Shown one piece after another: positions 4,812 through 16,691 of a DNA stretch of 36,392 bases. The notes beneath the pieces are model-generated. The model searched no databases and had not been told where the DNA came from. It saw only the letters and a program-made list of their open reading frames with translations. This stretch comes from Bacteroidota bacterium. GTDB taxonomy: Bacteria > Bacteroidota > Ignavibacteria > Palsa-1295. The position numbers were made by a program, and so were the translations under genes. Where the stretch lies: the NCBI GenBank assembly GCA_030706385.1, contig JAUZOQ010000026.1, positions 1 through 36,392 of the forward strand, read 5' to 3'. The first letter of the stretch is position 1; each line of letters starts with the position of its first letter.

Positions 4812-5366
4812 GTGGCAGACGAACATAAAAGCGAAAACGACCTTATAAAGGATCTTCGGGGTTCCCGGAAGGAAGCAGAAAAGGCTTTCTCGGAGCTTTA
4901 TAGCCGTTATGGTCAACGGATCTACGCCTTTATCCTGCGGATGACAAGCGATCGGACTGCCAGCCAGGATCTGTTGCAGGAAACATTTGTAAAATTTTTC
5001 AATGCTACAAAGCAGGACCTGGTCTTTACCAATCCCGGTGGATTCATGATGATGATCGCCCGGAATCTGTGTCTGAATTGGAAGCGTGATGAACATCCGA
5101 CACTTCCGTTGGAAGAATTTTTGGAATCCGAGCATGAAGCAGGGATCGAGCGCGATGAACTGCTCAATCTCGTAACTGTTGCCCTTGAACTGCTGGAGTA
5201 CGAATATCGTGAAGCCTTTGTCCTGAAATATTATCAGGGATATTCGTACGAAGAAATGTCTGCCATCACCGGTTCGACCGTTACTGCGCTGAAGAAGCGA
5301 GTCTGGCGGGCAAAAGAAAAAATTCGATCCACCCTGAAGCCGTATATCCTTGAACTCAAAAACTGA
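4812..5366 (+). CDS. ECF-type RNA polymerase sigma factor
   Basis: A 184-residue sigma-70 family protein of ECF size, containing only regions 2 and 4. Region 2 (about 22-90) shows FSELYSRYGQRIYAFILR and the core-binding segment LLQETFVKFF. Region 4 (about 122-175) shows the EYREAFVLKYYQGYSYEEM helix-turn-helix and the AxKKRVxRAKEKI recognition helix. It should direct core RNA polymerase to a small regulon in response to an envelope signal. The start is GTG at 4812; no ATG is better placed. Five bases after its stop comes a membrane protein with an anti-sigma-like cytoplasmic head, the expected partner. The target promoter motif cannot be read from this window, and the ECF subgroup is unknown. 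Confidence 0.93.
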   Translation: MADEHKSENDLIKDLRGSRKEAEKAFSELYSRYGQRIYAFILRMTSDRTASQDLLQETFVKFFNATKQDLVFTNPGGFMMMIARNLCLNWKRDEHPTLPLEEFLESEHEAGIERDELLNLVTVALELLEYEYREAFVLKYYQGYSYEEMSAITGSTVTALKKRVWRAKEKIRSTLKPYILELKN

Positions 5367-5371
5367 AAGCT

Positions 5372-6367
5372 ATGGAAACGTCCTATCAAAAATTGATTCA
5401 CGATTATTTGGATGGTACGCTAAGCGAAGAGGAGGAGAGGTCGCTGTTCGATAATCTCTCGGCTCACCCGGAGTGGCGTGAAGAACTTGCTTTTCAGATG
5501 CGTATGCATGAAGCAATGCAGAAGGATATTGCTTCGGTGAGTATTCCGGCCAAGACCACTGCATCGGTCTTTGCAGCGTTGGGGTTCGGTGTTCCTCAGA
5601 AAGCTTCGGCTGCTTTTTTTGCCAAAGCACTTCCGCGACTTGGGCTATCCAAAGCGATCATCGGAATCTCATCCCTTGCCGTTGCTGCCGTTTCTGTTTA
5701 CGTAATCGCCCCCAAGACTGCGGATTCACCGAAGCAGATCGCTGCAACAACCGTTCGGACGCCTGTTGTACCTGCTGCTGAAAATATTTCACCTACGCAA
5801 TCTCCGAACATTGCAACTCTGCCCGCAGCCGAGAGGGAAGCCGCTCATCCGGCACCTGAACTTCACCGGTCCTATCAGGATATCGGAAAATTTTCTTCTG
5901 TCGATTACCTGACGAAATCGAAAGTCATCGGAATTACGAGCGGAGGAAACATTTTTATTTCGGATGACGGCGGCTCATTGTGGAGTGAAGCAAGATCGAA
6001 TACATCGAAGGATCTCTATGGCGTTCATTTTTCCGATTCATCGAACGGCGTCATAGTCGGCGCTGCAGGTACCATCCTTTTAACCGCTAATTCAGGGAAG
6101 GACTGGGCATCGGTTTCAAGCGGGACGGAAGCAAATCTGATCGCCGTCCGCTACATCACTCGCGATACGCTTTTTGCCTGCGGTGCGCAGGGCACGATCT
6201 TACGAAGTACTTCGGGCGGTCTCATCTGGAAAAAACTGGAAAGCGGGACTGCGGCAAGCCTCTTCAAGATCCGATTCCAGAATGGAAGGGAAGGTACGAT
6301 CGGCGGAGAGCACGGAATTACGCTGCAAACTCACGACGGAGGATCGTCCTGGTCGCCTTTGCCCTGA
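5372..6367 (+). CDS. Anti-sigma factor fused to a periplasmic Ycf48-like beta-propeller
   Basis: A 331-residue single-pass membrane protein. Residues 1-90 form a small helical cytoplasmic head (LIHDYLDGTLSEEEERSLF) like the N-terminal part of many anti-sigma factors, but the HxxxCxxC zinc motif is absent. Residues about 95-113 are the membrane segment (AIIGISSLAVAAVSVYVIA). A Pro/Ala/Thr-rich linker runs to about 170. Residues 170-331 hold four Asp-box-like repeats ending in DDGGSLW, ANSGKDW, TSGGLIW and HDGGSSW, with the VxFxDxxxGxxVGxxGTIL pattern of Ycf48/HCF136-type propellers. It is placed five bases after the ECF sigma gene. The inferred role is to hold that sigma factor and release it when the periplasmic propeller senses a ligand or misfolded protein. 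Four repeats seem few for a closed propeller, so it may be partial or oligomeric. Confidence 0.85.
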   Translation: METSYQKLIHDYLDGTLSEEEERSLFDNLSAHPEWREELAFQMRMHEAMQKDIASVSIPAKTTASVFAALGFGVPQKASAAFFAKALPRLGLSKAIIGISSLAVAAVSVYVIAPKTADSPKQIAATTVRTPVVPAAENISPTQSPNIATLPAAEREAAHPAPELHRSYQDIGKFSSVDYLTKSKVIGITSGGNIFISDDGGSLWSEARSNTSKDLYGVHFSDSSNGVIVGAAGTILLTANSGKDWASVSSGTEANLIAVRYITRDTLFACGAQGTILRSTSGGLIWKKLESGTAASLFKIRFQNGREGTIGGEHGITLQTHDGGSSWSPLP

Positions 6368-6377
6368 TACCTGTTCG

Positions 6378-7259
6378 TTATAACTGGAACATTCTCGAAA
6401 TATTGAATCCGAGTTGTATTCCGCCTTTGAGCCAATTATTATAGGTCTCGGTAATAAATGCTTTTTCGTTCATTCCGTTGGAGTTCGAAAGATGCACCTG
6501 AAATACATGGCCACCGGTTTCAATATCAAATCCGACTGCAATAGGATCGTAATTCAATCCGGATTTCATTCCGTTGAAGGGATGAAACCAATCGAAGGTA
6601 AACGAAATGCGATTGGTGACTCGGATTCTTCCACCAAATCCTAAAGCGTAAATATCGTGGGGATCACTCTTGAGATCGACGAGGTTCCGATGGACAAGAG
6701 TGGGAGAGAGCTGAACGCTAAAATCATCATTGAGTTTGGAGCCGAGCAGCACTTGTTGAAAGAATGCAAGACGCGAAGTAAAATAATTGGAGATGGTCTG
6801 ATCCGGAAACGGCAATGTTTCGCAAGTCACTCCGGCCACAAGAACAACTGATAGAGGCATTTGTCTTGCACCCTTCGATTGTTGGATCAGCCTGTACTTC
6901 ACGGAGCCATCGTACTCTTTCTTGATCGAGCTTCGTCCGAAACCAACGAGTAGATCATTGAAGGGAGCGTAGTCGAAACTGAAACGAATCGTCGATTGGT
7001 CTAATCCGAAGAGCTGACTTGGCCCACCGTTGATCGGGCCAAATCGGTGCAATATCCTGAAATCGAGTGATCCGGCTCCGAGCATTTCAATGGATTGTCC
7101 ATTAATAATGCGCGTCGATTTGAAAGCGTTCTTAATATACTCGGTTTGCGGAATCGTATCCTTTACCAGATCGAGCAAACTCTCCTGAGCAAACATACGC
7201 GGGGCAAAGCCTCCGAAGATCGCAAGGGAGAAAGCGAGACAGGCAATTTTTTTTTTCAT
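6378..7259 (-). CDS. DUF5777-like outer-membrane beta-barrel protein
   Basis: 293 residues from ATG 7259. Residues 1-25 are a signal peptide (MKKKIACLAFSLAIFGGFAP, cleaved near MFAQ). The mature part alternates amphipathic strands typical of a porin-like barrel. It has the family-like segments RILHRFGPINGG, FSFDYAPFNDLLVGFGRS and GFDIETGGHVFQVHLSNS, and it ends in aromatic/hydrophobic residues. The start was set at 7259 because its ATG overlaps the stop of the upstream YceI gene as ATGA, the usual sign of coupled translation; an in-frame ATG at 7277 gives six more residues and is less likely. It is the last gene of a four-gene envelope operon. Function is unknown; transport or anchoring of the redox partners is an inference. 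Confidence 0.85.
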   Translation of the reverse strand: MKKKIACLAFSLAIFGGFAPRMFAQESLLDLVKDTIPQTEYIKNAFKSTRIINGQSIEMLGAGSLDFRILHRFGPINGGPSQLFGLDQSTIRFSFDYAPFNDLLVGFGRSSIKKEYDGSVKYRLIQQSKGARQMPLSVVLVAGVTCETLPFPDQTISNYFTSRLAFFQQVLLGSKLNDDFSVQLSPTLVHRNLVDLKSDPHDIYALGFGGRIRVTNRISFTFDWFHPFNGMKSGLNYDPIAVGFDIETGGHVFQVHLSNSNGMNEKAFITETYNNWLKGGIQLGFNISRMFQL

Positions 7260-7834
7260 GGCAACGGATCGAGCCAAACGGCTACCTGAATATTTACGGT
7301 GTTGGATATTTTATCTTTTACGAGTGAGGGGATCTCGATATCGAAATCGGAAAGTTGAATCTTGAACGCAGCCGTACCGCTTACTTTGCCATTCTTGACG
7401 ATCAATGTTCCGTGTGCAGGAACATCTTTTGTCAGTCCATGAATAGTGAGCTGGCCCGTGATCTTCACCGGATAGGATCCATCACGGGAGAGATCGACTT
7501 TAGAGAAATCGTCGATCTTTCCTTTATACGTCGATTTCGGATACTTATCGCTCTCAACATAATTCTCGTTGAAATGCTCCTGCATCAATGCACGCCTGAA
7601 TTCGAATGCCTTCAACAATACGGCAAGTTCCACATTCCCGGTCTTTGCATCGAGTACGAAGGTTGCCTTTTTGTTTTCTGCTGTGATATCTTCGAGGGGA
7701 CCGGATGCATCGAAAGTTATGTCACCGGATTTTGTAAAATACTTGCTTTGCGCATAACTTGATGCCTGGGTGAGACAGAATGCCAGCGCCAGAAAAAATA
7801 TTTGTGTTGTCTTCTTCATCATTAATGTATTCAT
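7256..7834 (-). CDS. YceI-family periplasmic lipocalin-like protein
   Basis: A 192-residue secreted protein with an N-terminal signal peptide (MKKTTQIFFLALAFCL, cut near SYAQ) and a YceI beta-barrel domain at about 35-190. Family features seen are KSGDITFDASGP at the first strand, FEFRRALMQEHFNENY, SDKYPKSTYKG, the GQLTIHGLTKDV strand, and the final DFDIEIPSLVKDKI. YceI proteins bind polyisoprenoid or other amphiphilic ligands in an eight-stranded barrel. In Bacteroidota they often sit beside cytochromes and barrel proteins. The start may be 7834 or the internal ATG at 7819, which gives a cleaner signal peptide. It lies 20 bases after the OB-fold gene and overlaps the next gene by four bases. 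Confidence 0.92.
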   Translation of the reverse strand: MNTLMMKKTTQIFFLALAFCLTQASSYAQSKYFTKSGDITFDASGPLEDITAENKKATFVLDAKTGNVELAVLLKAFEFRRALMQEHFNENYVESDKYPKSTYKGKIDDFSKVDLSRDGSYPVKITGQLTIHGLTKDVPAHGTLIVKNGKVSGTAAFKIQLSDFDIEIPSLVKDKISNTVNIQVAVWLDPLP

Positions 7835-7854
7835 AAATAGTCAGTTCATTCGCA

Positions 7855-8298
7855 TTATTGTCGTTTATCTTCATCAAATGTGCATCGCACGAGCACGACA
7901 TCGGTGAGCATGCCGCTACAAATACCGGTAACATTAACCGTATCTCCGGTGTGAAGTTTCTTTGCTTCTTCGATGTGGCGTGCATCGAGTTGGCAACTCA
8001 CATCGGCAATGGGATCTCCGCTATCGAGAGCAAGGCTGACCGAACCGGTGTGATCCGTACTCACCGCCTTCAACACTCCGCGTGCGCATGTCACTTTATT
8101 CAAATACTTCGCGTTGGCTGCACCTTCGTTTTCCGAAAATTCTTTAAAGAGTGCTGGAGCCGCAATGCACACATCGGCTTTTGTATTTGTCAGATCGGCG
8201 TTTCCGCGCGAATATTGATAGTATCCGTAGCCTGCGATACCTAAGAGTACTACGGCAACGCTGCCGAGTATCGTCCATGTTCTTTTCTTCAATGCCAT
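7855..8298 (-). CDS. Membrane-anchored OB-fold protein (tRNA_anti-like family)
   Basis: 147 residues. Residues 7-28 are a hydrophobic N-terminal anchor (WTILGSVAVVLLGIAGYGYY). The remainder fits the tRNA_anti-like OB-fold family: SADVCIAAPALFKEFSENE-type helix, then a five-strand barrel with CARGVLKAV, SVSLALDSG, DVSCQLD, GDTVNVTGICSGML and VVLVRC. Despite the family name, the periplasmic location argues against RNA binding; these domains occur in Bacteroidota envelope operons with unknown ligand. The sequence has several Cys (about 44, 71, 102, 127, 138) that could form disulfides. It lies between the haem lipoprotein (40 bases upstream) and the YceI gene (20 bases downstream), so it is likely co-transcribed with both. 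Confidence 0.8.
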   Translation of the reverse strand: MALKKRTWTILGSVAVVLLGIAGYGYYQYSRGNADLTNTKADVCIAAPALFKEFSENEGAANAKYLNKVTCARGVLKAVSTDHTGSVSLALDSGDPIADVSCQLDARHIEEAKKLHTGDTVNVTGICSGMLTDVVLVRCTFDEDKRQ

Positions 8299-8338
8299 CG
8301 TGTTATCCTCTTCCTATTCAATGTTTAATTCATAAAAT

Positions 8339-8722
8339 TTAATTATTGGGTGCGCCCATATTGATCCATTTCTGAATGATCGCAATATTGCAGTCGCTAA
8401 GTCTGCCACCATTGTTCGGCATCGCAAAGTATCCCGGCTGCTGCCTGATCGATCCCATCAATCTTCCTCCGGTAGCCACTGCTGCAAAATGCGAGTAATC
8501 ATCAAGTGTGACATTGCCGTTTGCAGCTGCATGTGTCTTGTCATGGCATGAATTGCAACTCGCATTGATAACAGGTGCGATCGAAACCGAATACGTGACC
8601 GCACTCGTGTCGCAGACAATGTTCTGATTTGCCGCTGAGTAGAGCTCTTCGGATGTATCGTAATAGCACCCCGCTACCGCTACCGAGATCAGGAGAGAAA
8701 GATAAAAAAGCTTACGTGTCAT
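8339..8722 (-). CDS. Monohaem c-type cytochrome lipoprotein
   Basis: 127 residues. A lipoprotein signal ends in the lipobox VAGC with acylated Cys19. One haem-binding CNSCH motif lies at 56-60 within a cytochrome-c-like domain. Met101 (FAMPNNGG) is the probable distal axial ligand, followed by the C-terminal helix CNIAIIQKWINMGAP that typically ends these domains. It should be an electron carrier tethered to a membrane face in the periplasm. It is the first gene of the operon with OB-fold, YceI and DUF5777 proteins, which suggests that the group works on a redox or envelope task. The redox partner cannot be read from the sequence. Confidence 0.9.
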   Translation of the reverse strand: MTRKLFYLSLLISVAVAGCYYDTSEELYSAANQNIVCDTSAVTYSVSIAPVINASCNSCHDKTHAAANGNVTLDDYSHFAAVATGGRLMGSIRQQPGYFAMPNNGGRLSDCNIAIIQKWINMGAPNN

Positions 8723-8929: not shown

Positions 8930-9376
8930 ATGAAAAAGATATTTACAGTTGTTTGCATTTTTACGGTCATCATCGCATACTCATGCACGCATGTCAGCGG
9001 GACGTTCATCAGCCAGCACGGTTCGATGCGAGGAAGCTCAATGAAGGATAATTGTATGGATTGCCATAAAATCGGAGCAACAGAAGGGGGTTTCACTGTC
9101 GGAGGAACGGTGTATGAAGCCGATACTGTGACACGATATGCGAATGGAACAGTCTATTTATATAGCGGCCCGAATGAATCCGATAGCGTTGTGGCCTCGA
9201 TCGAAGTTGACGGAGTGGGAAATTTTTACACAACACATCCGATCGATATGAGCAAGGGAGTTTATCCTGCAGTGGTTTCTTCACGCGGATATAAGGCATT
9301 CATGCAAACTCCGACATCATCGGGAGCATGCAATAGCTGCCATGGAGTCAGTCAGGCGCACATAGTAGTGAAGTAA
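8930..9376 (+). CDS. Diheme lipoprotein with a beta-sandwich between the two haem motifs
   Basis: 148 residues. The signal peptide ends at IAYSC with lipid Cys19. There are two haem-binding motifs: CMDCH at 42-46 near the N-terminus and CNSCH at 134-138 near the C-terminus. Between them about 80 residues look like a carboxypeptidase-regulatory/transthyretin-like beta sandwich (GGTVYEADTVT, GTVYLYSG, VDGVGNFYTT, YPAVVSSRGYKAFM). The function is probably electron transfer or haem-dependent sensing at the membrane. The gene is divergent from the four-gene cytochrome operon (207-base spacer with no clear promoter match) and converges on the cyclase gene with only seven bases between them. No close family name can be given. 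Confidence 0.85.
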   Translation: MKKIFTVVCIFTVIIAYSCTHVSGTFISQHGSMRGSSMKDNCMDCHKIGATEGGFTVGGTVYEADTVTRYANGTVYLYSGPNESDSVVASIEVDGVGNFYTTHPIDMSKGVYPAVVSSRGYKAFMQTPTSSGACNSCHGVSQAHIVVK

Positions 9377-9383
9377 GAACGCG

Positions 9384-10445
9384 TCAACTTTTTTTCTTTG
9401 CCTCAGCTGCCTCTGTATTGACCACACTAAACAACTCCACTTCGTGCTCTTTGCCTTTTAAGAGGAATGAACCTACCCGAAGAGCTTTATAGGATGAGTT
9501 CGCGATCGGCAGTACATCGAGAAGTTCACGAGATAAAAGAATTTTTGCTCCGAGCGAATTACAAGTCTCTTTAATTCGCGACGCCGTATTGACAACATCG
9601 CCTTGAAAGACTATTTCTTTCTTGATATCCCCAATCTGTCCCGTTACCACGGTTCCATAATGAAATCCTGCTTTGAATCCCGGAATGAACCCGTATTTCT
9701 GCTGATACTTCGGTGCCAGTTGTTCCATCACTTCGCTGATCCGGAAAAAACAATCGATGCAGTTCATCGCTTTCATTGAGCGAGTGTGCGACCATGTAAC
9801 GACTACTTCATCGCCGACATACTGATAGATCTCGCCTCCGGATTCTAGAATCGGCTTGGTAATATCGTAAACATAATCGTCGAGTAACTCGTGATAGCGA
9901 ATATTACCGATGCGTTCGGCAATTGTTGTGGAGGCATTAAGATCGAGAAACATGAAGATGCGCTCCTCTTCAATGGGTTTGCTATACTTTCCGATGATCA
10001 TATTCAGCAGGACATTCTGCCCGAGCATTCGACTCATCTGACGGATCATGTTGAAAAAAAAGGAAAGAGTCAGCCCATAGAGCACGATCGTCAGCAACTC
10101 GCCTCCGAACATGAATTCCCGGAAAGTCGGCAAGTGCCGCTCGTTACTCATACCGGAATTTCCGAAGATCTCCTTGTAGACGGCAAAACCGACCAAAACA
10201 TAAAACAGGATCACGACTAACTGAACGGCAGTTCGCAATAAGAGTGCGGAGGTGAAGCGAATGCGACGCAGCGGTTCATGCAAAATTCGTTTTTCAACAG
10301 TCGTTATCGAAAAACTGATAAGGATTCCAACGATCATGCCGGCGGCGATCGTCTGAATATTGGTGCCATAAAGATAGATCGGGAATGCGATGCCGCCGAT
10401 GATTCCGACGAGCAACGTGATCATGAAAGAGCGAAAGGGTCGCAT
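9384..10445 (-). CDS. Membrane-bound class III adenylate/guanylate cyclase
   Basis: 353 residues. The N-terminal half has about four membrane helices (roughly 10-28, 33-52, 68-90, 113-135). The C-terminal part (about 160-340) is a class III nucleotide cyclase catalytic domain. Visible catalytic features are metal Asp168 in FLDLNAST, metal Asp212 in QYVGDEVVVTW, and the NTASRI segment that carries the transition-state Asn and Arg. It should make cAMP or possibly cGMP at the inner face of the membrane, with the membrane part sensing a signal. The substrate cannot be decided by eye. No cNMP-binding effector is obvious in the window. A GGDEF enzyme was considered, but the GGDEF motif is absent. 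Confidence 0.92.
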   Translation of the reverse strand: MRPFRSFMITLLVGIIGGIAFPIYLYGTNIQTIAAGMIVGILISFSITTVEKRILHEPLRRIRFTSALLLRTAVQLVVILFYVLVGFAVYKEIFGNSGMSNERHLPTFREFMFGGELLTIVLYGLTLSFFFNMIRQMSRMLGQNVLLNMIIGKYSKPIEEERIFMFLDLNASTTIAERIGNIRYHELLDDYVYDITKPILESGGEIYQYVGDEVVVTWSHTRSMKAMNCIDCFFRISEVMEQLAPKYQQKYGFIPGFKAGFHYGTVVTGQIGDIKKEIVFQGDVVNTASRIKETCNSLGAKILLSRELLDVLPIANSSYKALRVGSFLLKGKEHEVELFSVVNTEAAEAKKKS

Positions 10446-15842: not shown

Positions 15843-16691
15843 ATGAAAATACTCCGATTCATCCCGATCGCTGCACTTCTTGCTTTCGTTTCCCTTATTT
15901 CGCTTCAAAGTTGTTCCAAGAGCGATAAACCTGCAGGTACAACTACTGATAGCTCCAAGACAACGACAACAACTACTCCCGCCCCGTCGACTGATGCCAC
16001 AGCTCCGGCAGCGCTCAGTGACAAGGCAAAGAAAGGTCAGCTCTTGTATTATAATACTTCTCTCGGAAAAGTAAAAGTCGCATGTGCTACGTGTCACTCC
16101 GATGGATCGGCAAAAACACAAGGCAATCAGATCCGTCAGGGACATACTCTCGCCGGAGTTACCAGCCGGACGGCAACTTGGAATGGAATGTATAAAGGTG
16201 ATAACTTGAAAAAGTTTGCCTACGGTGCATCGCTCTGTGCAGCCGTTTTCCAGAAACGTGCCGATATCAAGACTGTCGATAAAGCACTTTCGGCCGATGA
16301 AGTCGATGCTCTTAATGAATACTTAGCCGCCATCAACACCGCTCCCGGAGCGATGACATCGAATCTGAAGATCCAATGGGTTGGCAAACCGACCTTTAGC
16401 GATGAAGCTCCGGATGAGAAGATCGCAAAGCCCGGTATCACAGCCATCATGAAACTTCCCGGTGATCCTGCAAAGGGCGAAACAGTATTTGGCGCTTCCT
16501 GTGGAACGTGCCACAGCATTAGCGATAAGAAGATCGGACCTCCGATGGTCAAAGCTGCGAAGGATATGAACTATGTGGCGCAGACGATTCGCTTTGGCTC
16601 CGGTCAAATGGCATTCTATGCGAAGGATGTCCTGAGCGATCAGCAAGCCGCCGATGCTATCGCATATATCCAATCCAAGCTCGGGAAATAG
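15843..16691 (+). CDS. Diheme c-type cytochrome lipoprotein
   Basis: 282 residues. The lipobox LQSC places the acylated Cys at 24, followed by a Thr/Ser/Pro/Ala-rich linker (30-60) that lets the domains reach away from the membrane. Two cytochrome c domains follow, with CATCH at 81-85 and CGTCH at 220-224. The second is followed by KIGPPMV, and Met residues near 262 (GQMAFYA) are candidate axial ligands. It resembles the diheme SoxA/TsdA-like or 'c-type cytochrome' group, but the SoxA active-site Cys cannot be placed with confidence. It probably carries electrons in the periplasm. A hairpin 20 bases downstream ends the transcript. Confidence 0.9.
   Translation: MKILRFIPIAALLAFVSLISLQSCSKSDKPAGTTTDSSKTTTTTTPAPSTDATAPAALSDKAKKGQLLYYNTSLGKVKVACATCHSDGSAKTQGNQIRQGHTLAGVTSRTATWNGMYKGDNLKKFAYGASLCAAVFQKRADIKTVDKALSADEVDALNEYLAAINTAPGAMTSNLKIQWVGKPTFSDEAPDEKIAKPGITAIMKLPGDPAKGETVFGASCGTCHSISDKKIGPPMVKAAKDMNYVAQTIRFGSGQMAFYAKDVLSDQQAADAIAYIQSKLGK

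Follow-up and report, generated by a model that had tools for sequence, protein, structure and literature searches.

The window analysed here, a stretch of 36,392 nucleotides from a Bacteroidota bacterium (contig JAUZOQ010000026.1 of assembly GCA_030706385.1), carries a cassette of four genes encoding a predicted haem lipoprotein, an OB-fold protein, a YceI-family lipocalin and a putative DUF5777 beta-barrel. The set looks like an electron-transfer unit, because its genes stay linked in relatives, where the electron carrier is at times exchanged for another. Our preferred reading, to which we give a little short of an even chance, is that the cassette is a YceI-centred redox unit of the periplasm and outer membrane, similar to the BcnA/LcoA system of Burkholderia but with other carriers and an added barrel. 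The association of the genes is what points to electron transfer within it. The four genes are transcribed from the minus strand (8722 to 6378) in this order:

8339..8722, minus strand: predicted mono-haem c-type cytochrome lipoprotein, 127 aa, with a lipobox cysteine, CNSCH and an MP motif
7855..8298, minus strand: OB-fold protein, 147 aa, with an N-terminal hydrophobic helix (PF12869, tRNA_anti-like)
7256..7834, minus strand: YceI-family lipocalin, 192 aa, of a cassette-specific clade (PF04264 and tree)
6378..7259, minus strand: DUF5777 protein, a predicted beta-barrel, 293 aa if translated from the ATG at 7259 (PF19089)

A preliminary description of this DNA had proposed a compact operon here, and the open reading frame (ORF) coordinates bear out its four ORFs, their strand, the intergenic gaps of 40 and 20 bases and the 4-base overlap of the YceI and barrel genes (7256-7259). 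The overlap presumes the ATG at 7259 as start of the barrel gene, whose longest ORF would begin at a TTG at 7277. We infer that the four genes form one operon with a single transcript. The families are also those first named: YceI, the OB-fold protein and DUF5777 score over their Pfam cut-offs, and the cytochrome was recognised by CNSCH and its lipobox, with a Pfam score under the cut-off (Cytochrome_CBB3, E 6.4e-5, 23.7 bits against 27). The YceI protein matches PF04264 at E 4e-16 (60.2 bits against a cut-off of 23.7, profile positions 30-148 of 150), and the OB protein matches PF12869 at E 1.5e-18 (67.2 bits against 23.5). The barrel matches PF19089 over its full length (profile 1-247 of 247, 307 bits, E 9.5e-92), and its two nearest named relatives, both at 68% identity, come from metagenome-assembled genomes labelled Ignavibacteriae bacterium and Candidatus Kapaibacterium. 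Profile searches of the 3.5-Mb draft genome to which the window belongs found a single match each for DUF5777 and PF12869 and two for YceI.

The preliminary description would have been undone if the four families had shown no conserved neighbourhood in related genomes. DUF5777 is present in 153 of the 395 genomes sampled from the phylum, in 152 of them over the cut-off. From the listed matches, down to E ~3e-66, we drew 60 stretches, about one per genus; most matches of the window's own class are weaker and lie outside this sample. With five named contigs and the window this gave 66 loci (numbered with the prefix L) and 67 barrels, of which 65 were counted after dropping L034, where the barrel lies at a contig edge, and L071, a duplicate locus. 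Neighbours were counted on both strands up to 2.5 kb from the barrel, including cytochrome ORFs overlapped by longer ORFs. By this count YceI lies near 58 of the 65 barrels, a cytochrome of the window's family near 56, the OB protein near 24 and a Rieske protein near 5. A cytochrome or a Rieske protein is found at 60, YceI or the cytochrome accompanies every one of the 65, and at 24 the cytochrome, the OB protein and YceI are all present. Genomes hold few YceI copies (at most nine matches each, with nine candidates scored at most, from up to 11 first-look candidates), and simple arithmetic from these copies predicts YceI near one or two of the 65 barrels; the 58 observed therefore place the linkage above chance. 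The conserved neighbourhood is thus there, and the operon observation is confirmed as real and more than chance. The OB protein shows the same tendency: PF12869 occurs in 52 of the 395 genomes, together with DUF5777 in 38 of them (odds ratio 5.4, p 8e-8, uncorrected for kinship), and for 40 of its 70 places one of 150 listed DUF5777 barrels is no more than 5 kb away. A further co-occurrence was set aside: DUF5777 is found in none of the 17 genomes negative for COX1 (Fisher p 0.0002), a result confounded by kinship, as 11 of the 17 belong to a single family (f26).

The YceI proteins of the cassette form a separate, dedicated clade. The tree held 119 rows: 59 YceI proteins encoded within 1.5 kb of a barrel and 60 others, these being the best-scoring canonical copies and the remaining copies from twelve genomes; the L133 copy, which scored too low, and proteins longer than 260 aa were left out. 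A clade of 62 rows (support 100/98) takes 58 of the 59 barrel-linked rows. Three of its four extra rows are encoded 1.5-2.1 kb from a barrel, and the fourth belongs to an OB-YceI pair with no barrel on its stretch. The YceI protein probably holds an isoprenoid quinone or a similar lipid in the periplasm. A second type of YceI cluster was seen in L048, L156, L157 and L158, where two YceI genes flank a gene for a protein of 420-460 aa; this protein had no Pfam match in L157, the single one scanned.

The redox protein of the cassette varies: it is mostly a c-type cytochrome, sometimes a Rieske protein, and in a few loci a cupredoxin, a DOMON-like protein or an NrfD/Fe-S module. The window cytochrome has CNSCH as its single haem motif, a lipobox cysteine and the MP motif that runs through its family (55 of the 58 small members, one of which comes from the duplicate locus), and is predicted to bind haem with an axial methionine. 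In 14 of the 58 small members the only haem motif is CX4CH (for example in L076, L078, L083, L084, L088 and L091), the L036 cytochrome has CX3CH, and 14 of the 25 larger family members combine CX4CH with CX2CH. Nine barrels are without a cytochrome, and at four of these a Rieske protein is in place. PF00355 was over its cut-off in all three Rieske proteins scanned (L042, L049 and L066), and on the barrel tree the presence of Rieske requires four changes. L038 has, after its barrel and cytochrome genes, a run that encodes a small protein, a 4Fe-4S protein, a membrane protein of the NrfD type, an Ig-like protein and a second cytochrome. L082 and L095 have gene runs that resemble it by length only, L048 has the same Ig-like gene family, and the barrels of these four loci form one long-branched clade; the NrfD/Fe-S module goes with a barrel clade without YceI, L038 being the only one scanned. 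A plastocyanin-type cupredoxin with a type IX secretion system (T9SS) tail is encoded in L051 and L060, and a DOMON-like protein with such a tail in L056, L059 and L065, over the cut-off only in L059 and there by 0.1 bit; in these last three loci a gene for a Crp-family regulator directly precedes the barrel. L057 was dropped as a DOMON carrier, since inspection and Pfam found only the T9SS tail there and the shared tail had contaminated the DOMON profile.

The other two proteins of the window cassette were characterised by structure prediction and alignment. The model of the OB protein has a predicted local distance difference test (pLDDT) score of 75, and the best target-normalised template modelling (TM) score listed was with 3f1z (TM 0.57/0.70); the other matches of the fold search were mostly lysyl-tRNA synthetases with low target TM-scores. 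We discarded a CcmE haem chaperone as the identity of this protein, which matched tRNA_anti-like and weakly SoxE_N (E up to 1) and did not match CcmE. The barrel model has 12 strands and low confidence (pLDDT 53.5). H71 and H251 of the barrel are invariant in a six-row alignment, and the histidines of the HRFG and GGHVF motifs, which match them, are kept at 90% or more over 67 rows, their placement in space not being confident. A search of the barrel profile against solved structures found no relative, the one match being at E 0.92.

In some relatives the cassette adjoins a putative regulatory pair, an extracytoplasmic function (ECF) sigma factor and an anti-sigma-like protein made up of a short N-terminus, a linker and a C-terminal barrel-like part. 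Such an anti-sigma-like gene lies within 2.5 kb of 8 of the 65 barrels. An ECF sigma ORF immediately precedes all eight, the two ORFs overlapping in L085, and five of the eight proteins pass the threshold for transmembrane hydrophobicity. L160 provides a ninth case, in which the ORF before it encodes 181 aa and is unlabelled; OMP_b-brl_2 was over its cut-off in both proteins scanned of the nine (L045 and L160). The association requires five changes on the tree of 65 barrels. A model built from the nine rows (called Dma-like here, after the Das/Dma system considered below) matches 40 of 390 genomes at E <=1e-10. Among matches not used in training, 15 of 16 at E <=1e-80 and 20 of 32 at E <1e-45 have a barrel no more than 5 kb away; the count of 32 excludes twelve weaker places (E 1e-20 to 4e-11). 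In 20 further loci, 19 of them picked for this nearness, the genes for the sigma factor, the anti-sigma-like protein, YceI and the barrel are all on the same strand with at most two other genes between them, and a cytochrome is present in 12, a Rieske protein in 3 and neither by profile in 5. These arrangements suggest that the anti-sigma-like proteins probably act as anti-sigma factors for the cassette in these relatives. In the kin loci L031, L032 and L036, none of the ORFs is among the 15 labelled as sigma factors. The window has a sigma pair of its own:

4812-5366, plus strand: ECF sigma factor, convergent with the cassette and probably outside the unit
5372-6367, plus strand: anti-sigma-like protein with a YCF48/BNR C-terminus and a hydrophobic stretch near residue 95, convergent with the cassette and probably outside the unit

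We dropped this pair as a regulator of the cassette, as it is convergent, the kin loci just named have no sigma-labelled ORF, and the Dma-like model is without a match in the window genome, where the anti-sigma protein has a YCF48-like domain instead.

DUF5777 is also carried by plasmids, in four records, from Emticicia oligotrophica, Persicobacter psychrovividus, Hymenobacter volaticus and Aureibacter tunicatorum. Near the barrel, each of these plasmids encodes YceI and a lipoprotein-like protein with a haem motif, which three of the four annotations call hypothetical. In addition, the Emticicia plasmid encodes a Rieske protein, a sigma factor and a barrel-type protein of the outer membrane, and the Aureibacter plasmid an OB protein annotated as hypothetical. 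On the Hymenobacter volaticus plasmid (L168 1-8751) the set of haem-motif protein, YceI and DUF5777 occurs twice, with genes for a truncated haemoglobin and hemA between the copies. As the cassette is carried on a plasmid of E. oligotrophica DSM 17448, it could be tested in a named strain.

Taken as a YceI-centred redox unit, the cassette could work as follows. In the periplasm, the YceI protein would hold a lipid such as an isoprenoid quinone, and the haem lipoprotein, or Rieske in some relatives, would pass single electrons to or from this ligand. The OB-fold protein would be an accessory with its N-terminal helix as anchor, and the DUF5777 barrel the outer-membrane partner. The most likely purpose would be to maintain a lipid-soluble reductant in its reduced form at the outer membrane, so that oxidised or radical lipids are quenched there, as has been proposed for BcnA/LcoA. 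The cassette of some relatives would probably be switched on by an ECF sigma factor that is held by an anti-sigma factor spanning from the cytoplasm to the outer membrane. The locations of the proteins, the bound ligand, the direction of electron flow and the regulation are all predictions here, and lipid-radical quenching and lipid protection are suggested by the analogy with BcnA/LcoA. The preliminary description had guessed at a small lipid-linked electron-transfer or envelope-repair unit. The guess is partly supported: it stands in kind, in that the set is conserved and its redox protein varies, which is evidence from gene association. Extended further, the idea becomes one of a redox-repair system of the Bacteroidota outer membrane, in which a quinol bound to the lipocalin protects outer-membrane lipids, at the barrel or through it, and is recharged by interchangeable one-electron carriers (c-haem, Rieske and cupredoxin proteins), and in which some lineages sense the outer membrane directly through the sigma/anti-sigma pair. 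We propose this fuller version tentatively and consider it doubtful as a whole.

Several observations weigh against the reading as a redox unit. The OB gene is near only 24 of the 65 barrels, seven barrels have no YceI within 2.5 kb, and five (L050, L077, L085, L087 and L092) have no recognised redox protein within that distance, so that no single partner is obligatory. The barrel-linked YceI of L086 falls outside the cassette clade, 14 of the 52 genomes bearing PF12869 are without DUF5777, and barrels with weak DUF5777 scores fall outside the inspected set. The barrel model, at the low pLDDT already given, does not fix a mode of action. The argument on regulation rests on relatives, because the window genome is without a match to the anti-sigma model; 12 of the 32 non-training matches at E <1e-45 are not near a listed barrel, and the barrel-type protein of the Emticicia plasmid does not match the Dma-like model.

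A rather unlikely alternative, although the strongest of those we considered, is that the cassette is an outlet or inlet for electrons at the outer membrane, where the cytochrome or Rieske protein would exchange electrons, through or beside the barrel, with surface redox proteins or extracellular enzymes, and YceI would be only a quinone carrier. The cupredoxin and DOMON-like proteins of L051, L060, L056, L059 and L065 fit this well, since their T9SS tails make them probably surface-bound, as does the NrfD/Fe-S module that accompanies the barrel clade without YceI. A precedent is offered by Cbp2D, a protein with YceI and cytochrome domains whose cytochrome donates electrons to lytic polysaccharide monooxygenases (LPMOs), according to the available part of the report (PMC8981238). 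However, no surface redox protein was recognised in the window cassette or in most inspected loci, among the part of the neighbours that was scanned, and the single haem of the core cytochrome would not make up a haem wire across the barrel. We think it quite unlikely that the cassette is instead a transport unit, with the barrel as a channel for a hydrophobic compound, YceI as its periplasmic carrier and the redox proteins modifying the cargo or being secondary. YceI and the barrel do occur together without a recognised redox protein at the five barrels named above, and the best matches of the barrel model are with FapF and COG4313, two outer-membrane channels, but 60 of the 65 barrels have a cytochrome or Rieske protein, and these TM-scores were 0.52 or less, from a fold search that is weak because the model itself is weak. 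Finally, four short genes with small gaps in the window alone would prove no unit, but that they are chance neighbours with no joint function is extremely improbable, given that the linkage recurs on plasmids and under many of the phylum's family and genus labels, and that YceI forms a cassette-specific clade.

Elsewhere in the window, a divergent gene (8930-9376, plus strand) encodes a lipoprotein-like protein with two CXXCH motifs flanking an insert; a search of the ORFs from the 66 cassette loci gave no homologue of it at E 0.01. Another gene (9384-10445, minus strand) encodes an adenylate/guanylate cyclase domain (PF00211) behind an N-terminus that looks hydrophobic by eye. A cytochrome c protein with two CXXCH motifs (15843-16691, plus strand) precedes a 420-aa protein without a Pfam match.

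How does the cassette compare with known systems? The barrel family is found in well over a third of the sampled genomes, yet the name DUF5777 was not found in our literature search, and no description of the cassette was seen in the titles and abstract beginnings among the matches listed. MtrCAB-type porin-cytochrome conduits thread multihaem cytochromes through an outer-membrane barrel. They share with the cassette a barrel and a c-type cytochrome, but the window cytochrome has a single haem motif and is not multihaem.

The closest parallel is with BcnA/LcoA, which, in the portion of the work available, detoxifies lipid peroxyl radicals, its mutants showing enhanced lipid peroxidation; its authors propose that the cytochrome LcoA reduces a quinone bound to the lipocalin BcnA (PMC9113575). 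There, as in the cassette, the gene for a YceI-type lipocalin adjoins one for a haem electron-transfer protein, but LcoA is a membrane cytochrome b561, whereas the cassette has a c-type cytochrome lipoprotein or a Rieske protein (PMC9113575). The cassette also adds the DUF5777 barrel and sometimes the OB-fold protein, and BcnA itself is not on our YceI tree. Because none of the 18 window proteins searched with Pfam, the cassette genes and both flanks included, matched cytochrome b561, we do not class the cassette as a member of BcnA/LcoA. Cbp2D of Cellvibrio japonicus likewise pairs a YceI-like domain (X158) with c-type cytochrome domains, for which the accessible text proposes a redox role; it differs in being one multidomain protein with a carbohydrate-binding module, found in secretomes and lacking a barrel (PMC8981238, PMC12542752).

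For regulation, the likeness is with Das/Dma, as some relatives of the cassette adjoin the gene of an ECF sigma factor together with that of a protein in which a short N-terminus and a linker precede a predicted C-terminal barrel. As far as the text of that report extends, Das/Dma was described for vesicles and glycan use in Bacteroides, with a dual membrane-spanning anti-sigma factor, and a text search of it found no mention of YceI (PMC13088901). Overall, the cassette looks like a system that works as the YceI-plus-redox-partner systems do, appears to be unstudied as an electron-transfer unit, and may protect the outer membrane.

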